DNA of 44,629 nucleotides, from the NCBI GenBank assembly GCA_903859715.1, contig CAIONS010000047.1, positions 1 through 44,629 of the forward strand. The letters run 5' to 3'. The stretch's first letter is position 1; every line of letters begins with the position of its first letter. Both the position numbers and the translations under genes were made by a program. The notes under the pieces are model-generated. The model made no database searches. It was not told the DNA's origin and worked only from the letters and a program-made list of their open reading frames with translations. Positions 15-6,541 of the stretch are shown here, piece by piece. This stretch comes from an uncultured Opitutia bacterium. GTDB lineage: Bacteria > Verrucomicrobiota > Verrucomicrobiia > Opitutales > Opitutaceae.

Positions 15-78
15 GTAGGGCGAATCCTCTGGATGAGCTGTCCGGCAGGCCTTGGCGGGGTCAGCGACCCCGCCCTAC
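15..78. repeat. GTAGGGCG-type palindromic repeat, copy 1
   Basis: The element is bounded by GTAGGGCG and CGCCCTAC and contains a perfect 9-bp hairpin (GGCGGGGTC/GACCCCGCC, 54-74). Its right 27 nt, read on the minus strand, are identical to the last 27 nt of the window (44603-44629). The arm also supplies the TAG stop codon of the tgt fusion gene (75-77). This is a REP-like intergenic palindrome, and related copies lie at 4437, 5499, 12730 and 27890. Confidence 0.75.
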
Positions 79-2108
79 ATTTCCCCAAACTGCGGATGCG
101 CCTCAAATCGCTTTTCGAAGGCGGGTCTCTCTTCTGCAGCCAGACCCGGCGGATACTTCGAATCGCTCCGTTGCCAGCGGGCGAGCCATTCATTCCCCAG
201 CAGGCGGACACCAGCCGGGTGAGCACGGATCCCGTGCTCCTGGGTGAATGCGACGGTGGTCGTGGCCTTGGGGCCGGTCCCGACCCCTTCCGCGACGAAG
301 AAGCCGGTCGTCAACAGCGCCACCCGCACCGCGGTCGCTGCCGAATAAGTGTACAACTCGGCCGGTTTGGGCCGGCAGTGCTGAAAGAGCCGTGCGAAAA
401 CCGCGGCCGTCCATAATCCGGTGTCGGTCTTTGCGGAGAACGGATCGTAGAAAATCAGGTCGGGCGCCGGCGTCGTTTCCAGGAACGTCAGAAAATCGCC
501 GTGATGCAGTTCCCAGTGGAGCAAGCCTGACGCGTGCGTCCAGCGTCCGGATTCCAGCACGGCGTGCGGTGCGCCGTGGCGCAGATGCGGGAAGTGGCTC
601 GCAAAGCGCAGCGCGAGCTTCAGCGGGTCGAGATCGATCTCGAAGCTCACGAGGCGCAGCGGTCGCACGGCCTCCGCACCATGCTCGGCGAGGGTCTTTT
701 CAAAGCATTGCACCGCCGCCATCGCGTTCGACGCGGCGCCGAGGCCGACATCCCAAATCACGAGCTCCGTCGCATGGCCGTCCCGCTTCAGCAGGCGTTT
801 GGCGAGGCCCGATTGTCCGACATAGAGGGCATTGGCCTCGTCGCTCGGACGGTTCACCGAGTGCATCACCTCGCCCGAGCTGAGCTGGCGGATGCTGGAA
901 AATCCCTGCGGCCCGGTGACGATGTCGTAGTCGCCCAGATGCTTGACCCGGGCTGGCGCGCGTTTTTTGACCGGGTGGACGACGTTTTCCTCATCGCTGC
1001 CGCCGAGATCGTGGCGCTTCGCCTCGTAGTAGGTGGCAAACGTGTCGTGCAGGATATGCTCCCGCATCTCCCGCATCAGGCGGTGATAGAACGCGAAATT
1101 ATGGACGCCCAGCAGATGCCAGCCGAGCGTCTCGTCGGCCTTGACGAGATGGTGCAGGTACGCGCGCGTGTAGGTCTGGCAGGTGGCACAGGGGCAGCCG
1201 GCCTCGAGCGGTGCCTCGGACAGCTTGTGCGCCACGCGGCGCAGCTGGAGCTTGCCCTGGAAGGTGAATGCCACGCCGCGCTGCGCGAGCTGGGAGGGAA
1301 TGATGCAGTCGAACATGTCGACCCCACGGTGCACGGCCTCGAGAATGTCGATCGGCGTGCCGACGCCCATGAGGTAGCGCGGCAGGTTTTTCGGCAGATG
1401 ATCGGTGACGAGCCCGGTGAACTCGTAGCGTTGCGCATGGGTTTCGCCCACCGCCAGTCCTCCGATGGCGAGTCCGTCGAAAGGCAGCTGGCGCAGAAAT
1501 GCCGCGCTCTTTTTCCGGAGATCGGGATGACACGCGCCCTGCACGATCCCGAACAACGCCGCTGGTGAGTCACCGCGGGCCTCCAGCGAGCGCCGGGCCC
1601 AGCGGTGGGTGAGTTCCATGGCGGCTTCCGCCTCGGCATGAGGAGCGGTGGACGGGATGCACTGGTCGAGCGCCATCATGATGTCGCTGCCGATTACCTT
1701 TTGCATCGCGATGCTGGTTTCCGGTGAGAGCAGATGGACGTCGCCGTCGACGTAGCTCCGGAATCGCGCGCCTTCTTCCCTCATCGATCGTTCGCCGGGC
1801 AGGGAAAAAATCTGGAATCCGCCGGAATCGGTCAGGACGGGACGGTCCCAAATCATGAACCGGTGGATGCCGCCGAACTTCCTGAACACGTCGGGACCGG
1901 GCCGGAGCAGCAGGTGATAGGTATTGGCCAGCAGCACGCTGGCGCCGGTCGTCTTGAGGGTTTCCACCGTCTGGCTTTTCACGGTCGCCTGCGTGCCGAC
2001 GGGCATGAACACCGGGGTTTGGACCGGGCCATGGAGCGTCTGGAAGGACGCGGCGCGGGCCTTGGAGCCGCTGGCTTCGCGTTCGAGGGTGAAGTTGAGA
2101 CGGGACAT
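75..2108 (-). CDS. tgt: tRNA-guanine transglycosylase fused to MnmC-like tRNA methyltransferase
   Basis: 677 residues, against about 370-380 for ordinary bacterial Tgt. Residues 1-375 are a full Tgt TIM barrel: D-S-G-G-F-Q (Asp94 region), G-V-D-M-F-D-C (262-268) with the nucleophile Asp, and the zinc site C305-x-C307-x2-C310-x25-H336. Tgt swaps guanine 34 of GUN-anticodon tRNAs for the queuosine precursor preQ1. After a charged linker (about 365-395), residues 400-660 resemble the MnmC methyltransferase domain (DUF752/Methyltransf_30): an SAM motif D-V-G-L-G-A near 453, an acidic F-E-I-D strand end, then D-L-I-F-Y-D-P-F and T-Y-S-A-A near the C-terminus. That family acts on the mnm5 pathway at wobble uridine 34. 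No oxidoreductase half of MnmC is present. The fusion is read through one open frame; joint activity is inferred. Confidence 0.92.
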   Translation of the reverse strand: MSRLNFTLEREASGSKARAASFQTLHGPVQTPVFMPVGTQATVKSQTVETLKTTGASVLLANTYHLLLRPGPDVFRKFGGIHRFMIWDRPVLTDSGGFQIFSLPGERSMREEGARFRSYVDGDVHLLSPETSIAMQKVIGSDIMMALDQCIPSTAPHAEAEAAMELTHRWARRSLEARGDSPAALFGIVQGACHPDLRKKSAAFLRQLPFDGLAIGGLAVGETHAQRYEFTGLVTDHLPKNLPRYLMGVGTPIDILEAVHRGVDMFDCIIPSQLAQRGVAFTFQGKLQLRRVAHKLSEAPLEAGCPCATCQTYTRAYLHHLVKADETLGWHLLGVHNFAFYHRLMREMREHILHDTFATYYEAKRHDLGGSDEENVVHPVKKRAPARVKHLGDYDIVTGPQGFSSIRQLSSGEVMHSVNRPSDEANALYVGQSGLAKRLLKRDGHATELVIWDVGLGAASNAMAAVQCFEKTLAEHGAEAVRPLRLVSFEIDLDPLKLALRFASHFPHLRHGAPHAVLESGRWTHASGLLHWELHHGDFLTFLETTPAPDLIFYDPFSAKTDTGLWTAAVFARLFQHCRPKPAELYTYSAATAVRVALLTTGFFVAEGVGTGPKATTTVAFTQEHGIRAHPAGVRLLGNEWLARWQRSDSKYPPGLAAEERPAFEKRFEAHPQFGEM

Positions 2109-4365: not shown

Positions 4366-4432
4366 GCGGGCATCGAAAGGCGCGACCCGGCGGGTGTCCA
4401 ACCAACAAGCGTGGCGGCCGGCAGCCGTCAGT

Positions 4433-4459
4433 AAAAAGGGCGGGTCTGAGACCCGCCCT
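4433..4459 (-). terminator. Hairpin plus T-run (GTAGGGCG-family palindrome used as terminator)
   Basis: AGGGCGGGTC/GACCCGCCCT forms a 10-bp stem with a 3-nt loop. On the minus strand it is followed by TTTTT. It lies 36 bp beyond the stop of the GH29-like gene. The stem has the same sequence as the arms of the copies at 5499 and 12730, so a mobile palindrome seems to have been recruited as an intrinsic terminator. Confidence 0.65.
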
Positions 4460-4494
4460 GACTTGGCGTGCGATTGTGTCAGGGAAATCCCGGC

Positions 4495-5478
4495 TCAGCG
4501 CGCGGTGTGGATGGCGTGGCCGAGGGCGGTGATCTGGGGGTGAAACGCGGGGTCGATCAGGCCGCCGACCGTCAGCGGGGCATCCCATGAGATGACGCCG
4601 CCCTTGCCGTTGAAGTACTTGGTGTAGGCGATGGTAAACTCGTCGTCGAAACGCAGAGGGTGCTTGCCCCACCACTCGCCCATGATCGTGAGGATGTGGA
4701 GCTGCGCGCCGTCGAGAAAGCGGTCGAAATTCCGGAGGCGCGAGTAGTCGGGGAGGCAGCCGGGGGCGACGGGCAGGTCGCGCTCGATCTCACCTGGCGT
4801 GTAGTCCTCGTACTCGGTGATCGAATAGATCGGCGTGCGCAGGCCGTTGTTGAAGGCGATGATCGAATCGGGATTACCTGCCTTCAGGGCCTCGGCAAAA
4901 CTCCGGTAGTTGGGCGCATCGGGGTGCTGGTATTTTTCCTTCTCGTAGGGGCCGTCGACCCACCAGCCGCTCAGCGCTTTTCCCCAACGCAGCGACCATT
5001 CGCGGACGACGGCCTCCCAGTTGCGCTGGAGCTCGGTCATGCGTTCGTCGGGTTTTCCTTCGAGACGCTCCTTCGCGATGGGGTCGCTCGCGGGGGCCGT
5101 CCCGGGCACGTAGGCCATCAGACGAATGCCCCGGGCTGAGAGCGCGCGGGCCAGGTCGGCGATGAGATCGCGCTGGGAACACTTGCTGGGCTTGATGCCC
5201 ACGATGTCGTCGTAGGTCTGGTTCGGCGAAAGATAAAACCCCGAGTTCTGCCCGAGTGTGATGACGAAGTAGGGTACGTGCGCCTCGGCCAGTTGACGCG
5301 CGAGGCCCTCCACGTCAAACGCATCGATCCGGCGGTTCCAGTCACCGACCGGCAGCACGGTGGGCTTCAGGTTGCTGGCGGAATCGGCGAGGTAGTGCGT
5401 GAACAGGCCCCAGCGGCAGTCTTTGAACCAATCGGTGTTGGCGCGTTTCCAGGGAGTGGGAGATGAGGGAGTAGACAT
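4495..5478 (-). CDS. GH29-like (alpha-L-fucosidase-related) hydrolase
   Basis: 327 residues. The N-terminal W-F-K-D-C-R-W-G-L-F-T-H (17-28) is the signature of GH29 fucosidases (W-F-x-D-A-K-F-G-I-F-x-H). G-W-W-V-D-G-P (171-177) aligns with the W-x-D strand that carries the catalytic nucleophile, giving Asp175. The protein ends soon after the barrel and lacks the C-terminal beta-sandwich of full fucosidases (about 450 residues or more). There is no obvious signal peptide, so it may act in the cytoplasm on imported oligosaccharides. It lies between a PhyH oxygenase (upstream) and an epimerase (downstream) on the same strand. Fucosidase activity is not certain; the substrate may be another 6-deoxy sugar. 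Confidence 0.72.
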   Translation of the reverse strand: MSTPSSPTPWKRANTDWFKDCRWGLFTHYLADSASNLKPTVLPVGDWNRRIDAFDVEGLARQLAEAHVPYFVITLGQNSGFYLSPNQTYDDIVGIKPSKCSQRDLIADLARALSARGIRLMAYVPGTAPASDPIAKERLEGKPDERMTELQRNWEAVVREWSLRWGKALSGWWVDGPYEKEKYQHPDAPNYRSFAEALKAGNPDSIIAFNNGLRTPIYSITEYEDYTPGEIERDLPVAPGCLPDYSRLRNFDRFLDGAQLHILTIMGEWWGKHPLRFDDEFTIAYTKYFNGKGGVISWDAPLTVGGLIDPAFHPQITALGHAIHTAR

Positions 5479-5498
5479 GATGGAGAAGTGTTTCCGGG

Positions 5499-5559
5499 GT
5501 AGGGCGGGTCTTTGACCCGCCTTGGACGGTGCTGAGAGCGGGTCAGAGACCCGCCCTAC
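5499..5559. repeat. Paired GTAGGGCGGGTC palindrome
   Basis: The element starts GTAGGGCGGGTCTTTGACCC and ends with the reverse-complement arm GGGTCAGAGACCCGCCCTAC, so each half is a hairpin and the two halves are also inverted with respect to each other. It fills the gap between the PhyH and GH29-like genes. It is closely related to the copy at 12730-12789. Confidence 0.85.
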
Positions 5560-5563
5560 GACT

Positions 5564-6394
5564 TTACCCGCCGTAAATCACCGGGCAGATCGCAGGATTG
5601 TCGAGATGCCCGAGGTAATCGTAGCCGCCGCCCTGGGTGTCGATGTTCCGGTTGGGAATCGGCACGGCTTTTTCCGTGCAGAGATGGATGGCAAAGCTGC
5701 GCCGCGGTGAATCCGACAGGTTGGGCTGGCTGCCGTGGAAGGTCAGGCGGTGGTGGAGGCTGAAGGCGCCGGCCGGCATGGCGCCGGAAACATCCTTCCA
5801 TTCCGCCTTGGGCGGCAGGGCGATTTTCCGTTTCGATTCGTCGACCGAACCGAAAAAATCGCTTCCTTCCAGCAGACCCCAGCGGTGGGAGCCCGGCACG
5901 AAATGCATCGGGCCGCTTTCCTCGCGCACGTCGCTGATGGCGAGCCACGCGGTGAAAACGTCGCTGTTCGGCTGCCACCACGTGTTCCAGTAATAGAGAT
6001 CCTGATGCCAGCCCACGGCTCCCCGGGCGTCGCCGCCCGGCGGCTTGTGCAGCATCTGCACGGCCCAGACCTGCACCCGCTTCGCGCCCGTGAGGGCGGC
6101 GACCCACTCGCCGATCGCGGGGTGCGCGATGGTTTCAAAAATGGTGCGGTCGGCCACGTGGGCCTGGTCGATCTTGCTCAGTTTGCCCGGGGTATCGTTG
6201 GGCCCGGCCCAGGAGTTCAGCGGTTTCTTCCCGGTCTCGTACTCGCCGTGCCGCACGGCGTCCATGCGTGGGATGACACGAGCGAGCAACTCTGGCGGCA
6301 CGACGGGCGGTGCGATGCAAAATCCGTCGCGCTGGTACTGGGCGGATTTTTCGCGGACGACGGCAGCGTCAACCAAGGCAACGGGAGCGGGCAT
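5564..6394 (-). CDS. Phytanoyl-CoA dioxygenase (PhyH) family protein
   Basis: 276 residues. It is a second Fe(II)/2-oxoglutarate oxygenase: iron ligands H130-x-D132 (G-W-H-Q-D) and H220 (T-F-H-G-S), P-G-S-H at 167-170, and R231/R232 as the likely 2-oxoglutarate contact. It is not a recent duplicate of the 2499 gene, since similarity is limited to the family motifs. It is first in a minus-strand series with the GH29-like hydrolase (85 bp gap holding a palindromic repeat) and the epimerase. Hydroxylation of a sugar-linked or lipid substrate is plausible but inferred. Confidence 0.88.
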   Translation of the reverse strand: MPAPVALVDAAVVREKSAQYQRDGFCIAPPVVPPELLARVIPRMDAVRHGEYETGKKPLNSWAGPNDTPGKLSKIDQAHVADRTIFETIAHPAIGEWVAALTGAKRVQVWAVQMLHKPPGGDARGAVGWHQDLYYWNTWWQPNSDVFTAWLAISDVREESGPMHFVPGSHRWGLLEGSDFFGSVDESKRKIALPPKAEWKDVSGAMPAGAFSLHHRLTFHGSQPNLSDSPRRSFAIHLCTEKAVPIPNRNIDTQGGGYDYLGHLDNPAICPVIYGG

Positions 6395-6541
6395 GGGGTG
6401 GAGGACAGGGTTTTCCGACTCCCGTCTGGAGTGAAGCAGAGCCGAACGTTGGTCAACTGCTTCGCGGCCGGTGCCGATGCTGGTTGCCCATCCGACCGGT
6501 GCCGGGTATCTGGGTGGTTCGGCTGGTCCGAAATCCCACGC

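Follow-up and report, generated by a model that had tools for sequence, protein, structure and literature searches.

In positions 1 to 44,629 of contig CAIONS010000047.1 from an uncultured Opitutia bacterium (Opitutaceae; assembly GCA_903859715.1), a stretch of 44,629 nucleotides that we call the window, a single reading frame joins a complete Tgt to a methyltransferase of the MnmC2 fold. The gene lies on the minus strand (75..2108, read from 2108 to 75) and runs from ATG to TAG over 677 codons, encoding 677 residues. We propose that the gene may encode a bifunctional enzyme of RNA modification with a specialised second Tgt (Tgt2) at its core, an enzyme that would insert preQ1 (7-aminomethyl-7-deazaguanine) into RNAs other than those served by the normal Tgt and would then N-methylate it. 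Judged from conserved and exchanged residues and from analogy to related systems, we consider this possible, though just short of probable. If true, a widespread Tgt2 that moves horizontally together with a methyltransferase, and whose residues next to the anticodon site are changed, would point to a new modified nucleoside and perhaps to new target tRNAs; DUF752 enzymes would then have exchanged a uridine for a 7-deazaguanine as their substrate.

The Tgt domain comprises residues 16-365 (1014..2063, minus strand, as for all features of this gene) and contains an active site of the preQ1 type. Pfam TGT matches this region with an E-value of 5.9e-141, the score against the NCBIfam Tgt equivalog TIGR00430 (432 bits) exceeds the cutoff of 306.75, and in a Foldseek search with the full-length model the N-terminal part matched Z. 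mobilis Tgt with a template modelling (TM) score of 0.94 by target length. A linker at residues 374-385 (954..989), where the predicted local distance difference test (pLDDT) of the model is below 50, leads to the MnmC2-fold methyltransferase domain at residues 387-677 (78..950), as delimited by model and Foldseek. Within the latter, Pfam Methyltransf_30 (DUF752) matched residues 526-621 (246..533; E 2e-12, 47.6 bits with a gathering score of 22), and the NCBIfam MnmC2 model NF033855 matched residues 411-620 with 72.5 bits, below its cutoff of 136; as four MnmC2-like proteins of our scan also miss this cutoff (104-121 bits), the shortfall is weak evidence. Pfam, NCBIfam and Foldseek agree here with the initial annotation of the window, which had described one 677-codon frame joining a complete Tgt to an MnmC-like methyltransferase and which we can complete by the strand; the motifs quoted there for both domains are present in the translation, and the DUF752 similarity expected for the C-terminal half is borne out by the Methyltransf_30 match. 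The C-terminal domain modelled alone reached a pLDDT of 91.6 and a predicted TM score (pTM) of 0.91, and ranks 1-9 of its Foldseek matches in the PDB were all MnmC or MnmC2 (E 1e-14 to 1e-10). The next matches were an archaeal N4,N4-dimethylcytidine (m4,4C) synthase and spermidine synthases, amine-acting neighbours that we count in favour of amine N-methylation. Compared with four relatives of the genus, the ratio of nonsynonymous to synonymous substitution rates (dN/dS) was 0.07-0.18 for the Tgt and 0.10-0.17 for the methyltransferase at a high dS of 0.56-1.14, values that suggest purifying selection on either half of the protein.

The fusion is found in five of 12 genomes of the genus. Of 200 family genomes, 70 gave a match to its C-terminal domain, mostly in frames of about 700 amino acids; 29 of the 30 family loci that we fetched are in-frame fusions and the other one is truncated where its contig begins. 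When public genomes of bacteria and archaea were scanned with the methyltransferase, 157 relatives emerged, 80 of which are covered by the following counts: 77 are in-frame fusions, and the remaining three are cut by the start of their contigs. Most of these relatives are titled Opitutae, Opitutaceae or Verrucomicrobia; other titles include Deltaproteobacteria, Riflebacteria, Spirochaetes, Bacteroidetes and more, although some titles of metagenome-assembled genomes (MAGs) look wrong. Since the same uninterrupted frame recurs in independent assemblies, an assembly or frameshift artefact is ruled out, and with it the missed stop between the domains that the initial annotation had named as a risk; its question how widespread the fusion might be is answered by the same counts. 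Starting from the Tgt half, we searched 374 genomes of the phylum (a sample overlapping with that of the family). The top 24 Tgt matches listed have at least 64% identity and each belongs to a frame that is 575 or more amino acids long, after which the next best Tgt among the matches listed drops to 50% identity. The methyltransferase is intact in 21 of these 24 (E under 1e-90) and decayed in three. Among the matches listed, the Tgt2 subtype always comes with the C-terminal domain (decayed in the three), and the methyltransferase subtype was not found without a Tgt among the 80 relatives inspected in the public scan, so that the linkage runs both ways. The phylum scans scored six and five candidates per genome, by which cut Tgt2 pieces could be missed, and 13 of the 70 weak phylum matches to the methyltransferase were read.

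Tgt2 is a second Tgt and nearly always stands beside a normal copy. The genome of the window encodes a separate stand-alone Tgt that is 44% identical to the fused one. In the family, at least two Tgt matches were seen in 64 of the 70 genomes with the fusion, compared to nine of the 130 without it; outside the family, another Tgt was present in all 24 fusion genomes checked, in two cases (G289 and G563; G and L numbers denote genomes and loci of our samples) as contig-edge pieces only, the piece in G563 having the normal motif PTRHARNG. QueA is similarly common with and without the fusion (65/70 and 121/130 family genomes), hence its presence does not follow the fusion.

In a tree of Tgt sequences, 55 fused and 37 stand-alone proteins are split by a single branch (support 100/100, length 1.02). 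While the stand-alone Tgts cluster mostly by organism, the fused Tgts of Riflebacteria-type genomes (G561, G565) and of G554 nest among Opitutae sequences, which suggests that the fusion was transferred between phyla. We compared residues in 106 fused and 36 stand-alone Tgts, all distinct sequences, although some may stem from overlapping loci and represent the same gene in part; the fused counts are weighted towards Opitutaceae. In Z. mobilis numbering, D102, D156, C158, Q203, G230, V233, E235 and D280 are invariant in all 142 Tgts, fused and stand-alone. These are the catalytic and preQ1-pocket residues, and Tgt2 should therefore still use preQ1. The equivalent of Asp280, described as the nucleophile of Z. 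mobilis Tgt (PMC6165067), is Asp267 (1308..1310) by alignment. A zinc site formed by C305, C307, C310 and H336 (1101..1196) is likewise present, and the CCCH ligands are complete in 106/106 fused but in only 18/36 stand-alone Tgts. Zinc cysteines have been lost from the stand-alone Tgts of L002 (1489-2640), L007-L016, L203, L205, L210, L214 and L216, among which that of L013 is truncated by its contig.

The clearest differences between the two groups concern positions 157, 286, 289 and 290. E157, R286 and R289 are present in 36/36 stand-alone Tgts. In the fused group Glu157 is lost in 106/106 (Gln in 102) and Arg286 in 105/106 (Gln in 100). Where stand-alone Tgts have the motif P[TS]RxxRNG, the fusion protein of the window reads PSQLAQRG (residues 271-278, 1275..1298), and its Gln273 and Gln276 align to Arg286 and Arg289. 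Lacking the P[TS]RxxR motif and carrying Gln at both arginine positions, the fused protein is classed, on its sequence, as a Tgt paralogue and is not filed as a Tgt for queuosine at position 34 (Q34). In the twisted dimer of the Z. mobilis enzyme, Arg286 lines a cavity that joins the pockets for ribose 34 and phosphate 35 (PMC5395182).

The methyltransferase half has also moved away from its relatives. Together with three stand-alone relatives it is split from the compared MnmC2 rows by a long branch (100/100), with long branches of 1.96 and 3.34 in the tree, and by its sequence it forms a lineage of its own at some distance from true MnmC2. Four residues show no variation across 59 rows: G455 and G457, which are glycines of the loop for S-adenosylmethionine (SAM), E490, and D555, the Asp of the DPF motif. 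The SAM-loop region reads DVGLGAASN (residues 453-461, 726..752), where the compared MnmC2 rows have GFGLGxN or near variants, and the DPFS motif lies at residues 555-558 (435..446), with Asp555 aligned to the Asp of MnmC2 chains. N-x-E-x-W of most compared MnmC2 rows is replaced by TDxxLW in the fused rows shown (TDTxCW in one), and the (G)GT motif by a TGPKxxTT-like sequence; no source makes these two motifs family-defining. The three stand-alone relatives (L152-L154, 32-36% identity) group together (99/92), separate from the fused proteins (92/94). At L153 some 500 bases separate the relative and a TrmL-like gene (4414-4950 and 5435-6415; 181 bits, cutoff 191), TrmL being another family of position-34 tRNA methyltransferases, and the locus of another stand-alone relative includes an RlmB-like gene.

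According to our proposal, the Tgt half, with its intact active site, would first exchange a guanine in RNA for preQ1, most likely the wobble G34 of a tRNA. The C-terminal MnmC2-fold domain, using SAM, would then methylate the primary amine of the newly installed preQ1 to give N-methyl-preQ1, the same chemistry as that of MnmC2 on the aminomethyl group of 5-aminomethyluridine (nm5U34). This two-step scheme is drawn by analogy: MnmC2 is fused to MnmC1 in E. coli (PMC3648344) and to MnmL in other Verrucomicrobiota, both partners take part in forming the aminomethyl group that is then methylated, and Tgt also installs one, on C7 of preQ1. As the residue changes hint, Tgt2 would recognise its RNA target in surroundings different from the U33-G34-U35 of the normal Tgt, which would account for the presence of both Tgts and for the persistence of queuosine. 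A target in the queuosine (7-deazaguanine) pathway, which the initial annotation had offered as one option, is thus the one we favour, again by comparison of residues and by analogy. Queuosine in bacterial tRNA has been described at GUN anticodons. A more specific version, in which the one enzyme makes N-methyl-preQ1 at G34 of non-GUN tRNAs and thereby a second 7-deazaguanine wobble code beside queuosine, spread horizontally between phyla, appears rather unlikely. Among the titles and abstracts listed in our searches of open-access literature, none dealt with a fusion of Tgt to a methyltransferase, and none with tRNA that contains N-methyl-preQ1.

Several findings speak against the proposed preQ1 N-methylation on a new RNA target. 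Six of the 70 family fusion genomes have a single Tgt match (G006, G038, G146, G177, G193 and G197), which may reflect either a true single copy or gaps in the assemblies. Arg289 is retained in 4/106 fused Tgts, and the six without Gln286 have Ser (2), Lys (2), Ala (1) or Arg (1); most of these exceptions belong to lineages outside the family, where the replacement varies, and the fused Tgt of L185 retains both arginines. That Arg286 and Arg289 contact U35 in the Tgt-RNA complex is itself an assumption of the proposal. The AlphaFold2 model of the whole protein (pLDDT 86) has low confidence at linker 374-385 and a pTM of 0.57, so the relative placement of the two domains is uncertain in it. The genomes that encode the three stand-alone sister methyltransferases have one Tgt each, hence the subfamily can act without Tgt2. 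Conversely, one genus includes three genomes whose fusion has an intact Tgt half and a decayed methyltransferase, with loss of DPFS and TYSAA (L155 3655-5559, L156 4850-6586 and L157 4992-6716); the tail of L155 gave no Methyltransf_30 match. In those genomes Tgt2 can do without methylation, as would be expected if the C-terminal domain served mainly to bind RNA or position the substrate of Tgt2, methylation being lost or minor. We regard such a role as distinctly improbable for the subfamily, because the conservation of the SAM site across the 59 rows argues for catalysis in most members and the dN/dS of the domain is low. Finally, MnmEG, whose genes mnmE-mnmG are described as universally conserved in bacteria, can make nm5U34 from ammonium (both PMC9976899), so that a missing MnmC1 or MnmL does not exclude a role in the pathway to 5-methylaminomethyluridine (mnm5U34).

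On that route the C-terminal domain would be a functional MnmC2 converting nm5U34 made by MnmEG and ammonium into mnm5U34, and the fusion would merely co-express or co-localise enzymes that act on different tRNAs. We consider this main alternative unlikely, though it has points in its favour: the fold is the same, the profile match to MnmC2 is significant, and in 69 of the 71 family genomes (out of 200) with a Methyltransf_30 match the hit is the fusion itself, so nothing else there looks MnmC2-like. Furthermore, a stand-alone MnmC2 without MnmC1 is known from Aquifex (PMC3648344). Against it stand the separate clade with its long branches and replaced motifs, and the lack of pathway partners in fusion genomes. 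MnmL passed its cutoff in four of 200 family genomes and in 0/70 of those with the fusion; MnmC1 passed in 0/55 fusion genomes, with up to 27 candidates searched in some genomes and a strict cutoff that just 2/14 control genomes passed. Moreover, this alternative gives no reason why the partner should be a second Tgt with altered residues, and G554 holds both the fusion and a separate MnmC2-like protein, although this genome is a MAG and could be mixed. Extra weak DUF752/MnmC2 matches in six fusion genomes (five of the family and G563) were rejected as additional MnmC2, as all score best as polyamine aminopropyltransferases. The initial annotation had seen in the gene two wobble-base enzymes that could coordinate mnm5U34 and Q34 on different tRNAs: the two folds in one chain stand, whereas the coordination is weakened by the replaced motifs and by the lack of MnmL and MnmC1 above cutoff in the fusion genomes searched. 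Its picture lacked the normal Tgt beside the fusion, the change of the presumed anticodon-reading arginines and the distance of the methyltransferase from true MnmC2.

Comparison with the closest known systems sharpens what is particular to the fusion. With bacterial Tgt of the Z. mobilis/E. coli type (TIGR00430) it shares the fold, the catalytic aspartates, the zinc quartet, the preQ1 pocket and a score at equivalog level, but it differs by forming a separate clade, by changes of Arg286, Arg289, Asn290 and Glu157 in nearly all members, by its additional methyltransferase domain and by its occurrence beside another Tgt. MnmC2/DUF752 proteins (the N-domain of E. coli MnmC, Aquifex MnmC2) have in common with it the fold, the SAM-site glycines, the Asp of DxF and the Pfam family; unlike them, the fusion falls below the equivalog cutoff, has replaced motifs and is found without an MnmC1 or MnmL partner above cutoff in the fusion genomes searched. 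The nearest architectural parallel comes from other Verrucomicrobiota, in which the radical SAM enzyme MnmL/YtqA is fused to MnmC2, as found by profile scan for two proteins (L230 330-2093; L233 1717-3471) and by eye for L231, L232 and L234. There, too, an MnmC2-fold domain follows a wobble-base enzyme of aminomethyl-group formation, but a radical SAM enzyme from the mnm5U pathway takes the place of Tgt. Both MnmC1 and MnmL belong to nm5U formation (PMC12548931). The MnmL fusions, of 580-600 amino acids, had appeared as weak phylum matches; an assignment as MnmC1-MnmC2 was rejected, since the sequences and two scans show MnmL-MnmC2.

The changed Tgt2 residues leave the target open, and Tgt2 might insert preQ1, or 7-cyano-7-deazaguanine (preQ0), while the substrate of the methyltransferase is some other group in this tRNA, for instance an intermediate formed later on the way to queuosine or a base nearby, or else a different nucleic acid, for example DNA. 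A precedent is DpdA, a Tgt paralogue that modifies DNA (PMC6884629). We hold this to be improbable, given that the zinc site and the TIGR00430 score place the fused Tgt with the tRNA Tgts; the searches of mobile elements and of gene neighbourhoods also count against it. The methyltransferase domain had no match in phages or plasmids, none of 33 pattern matches in viral contigs was confirmed, and a PHROGs search (E up to 1) gave no match, for which reasons a mobile-element origin was rejected; no neighbouring gene is conserved beyond 10 of 94 loci, the commonest cluster of neighbouring open reading frames reaching that number on the opposite strand. DpdA is not among the seven NCBIfam matches of the fusion protein (E up to 1). 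N-methylated preQ1 (mdPreQ1) occurs in phage DNA; it is the same base as the product that the proposed preQ1 N-methylation would give, its setting being DNA, not tRNA.

Some loci deviate from the simple arrangement. Genome G168 carries two copies of the fusion about 220 kb apart (L169 8953-11217; L170 7057-9174), one of them accompanied by a small extra piece of methyltransferase tail (L169 6903-7172). In another genome, a frame change splits the fused Tgt into two pieces (L088 4842-5768; G555:C552), and this copy may be broken or misassembled. In the window, the palindrome GGCGGGGTCAGCGACCCCGCC is found at both contig ends (54-74 and 44607-44627), two sites that are each read on both strands with none expected. 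Copies resembling it lie behind the genome's stand-alone tgt (L002, after position 2640). It is a dispersed intergenic repeat and may have broken the assembly.

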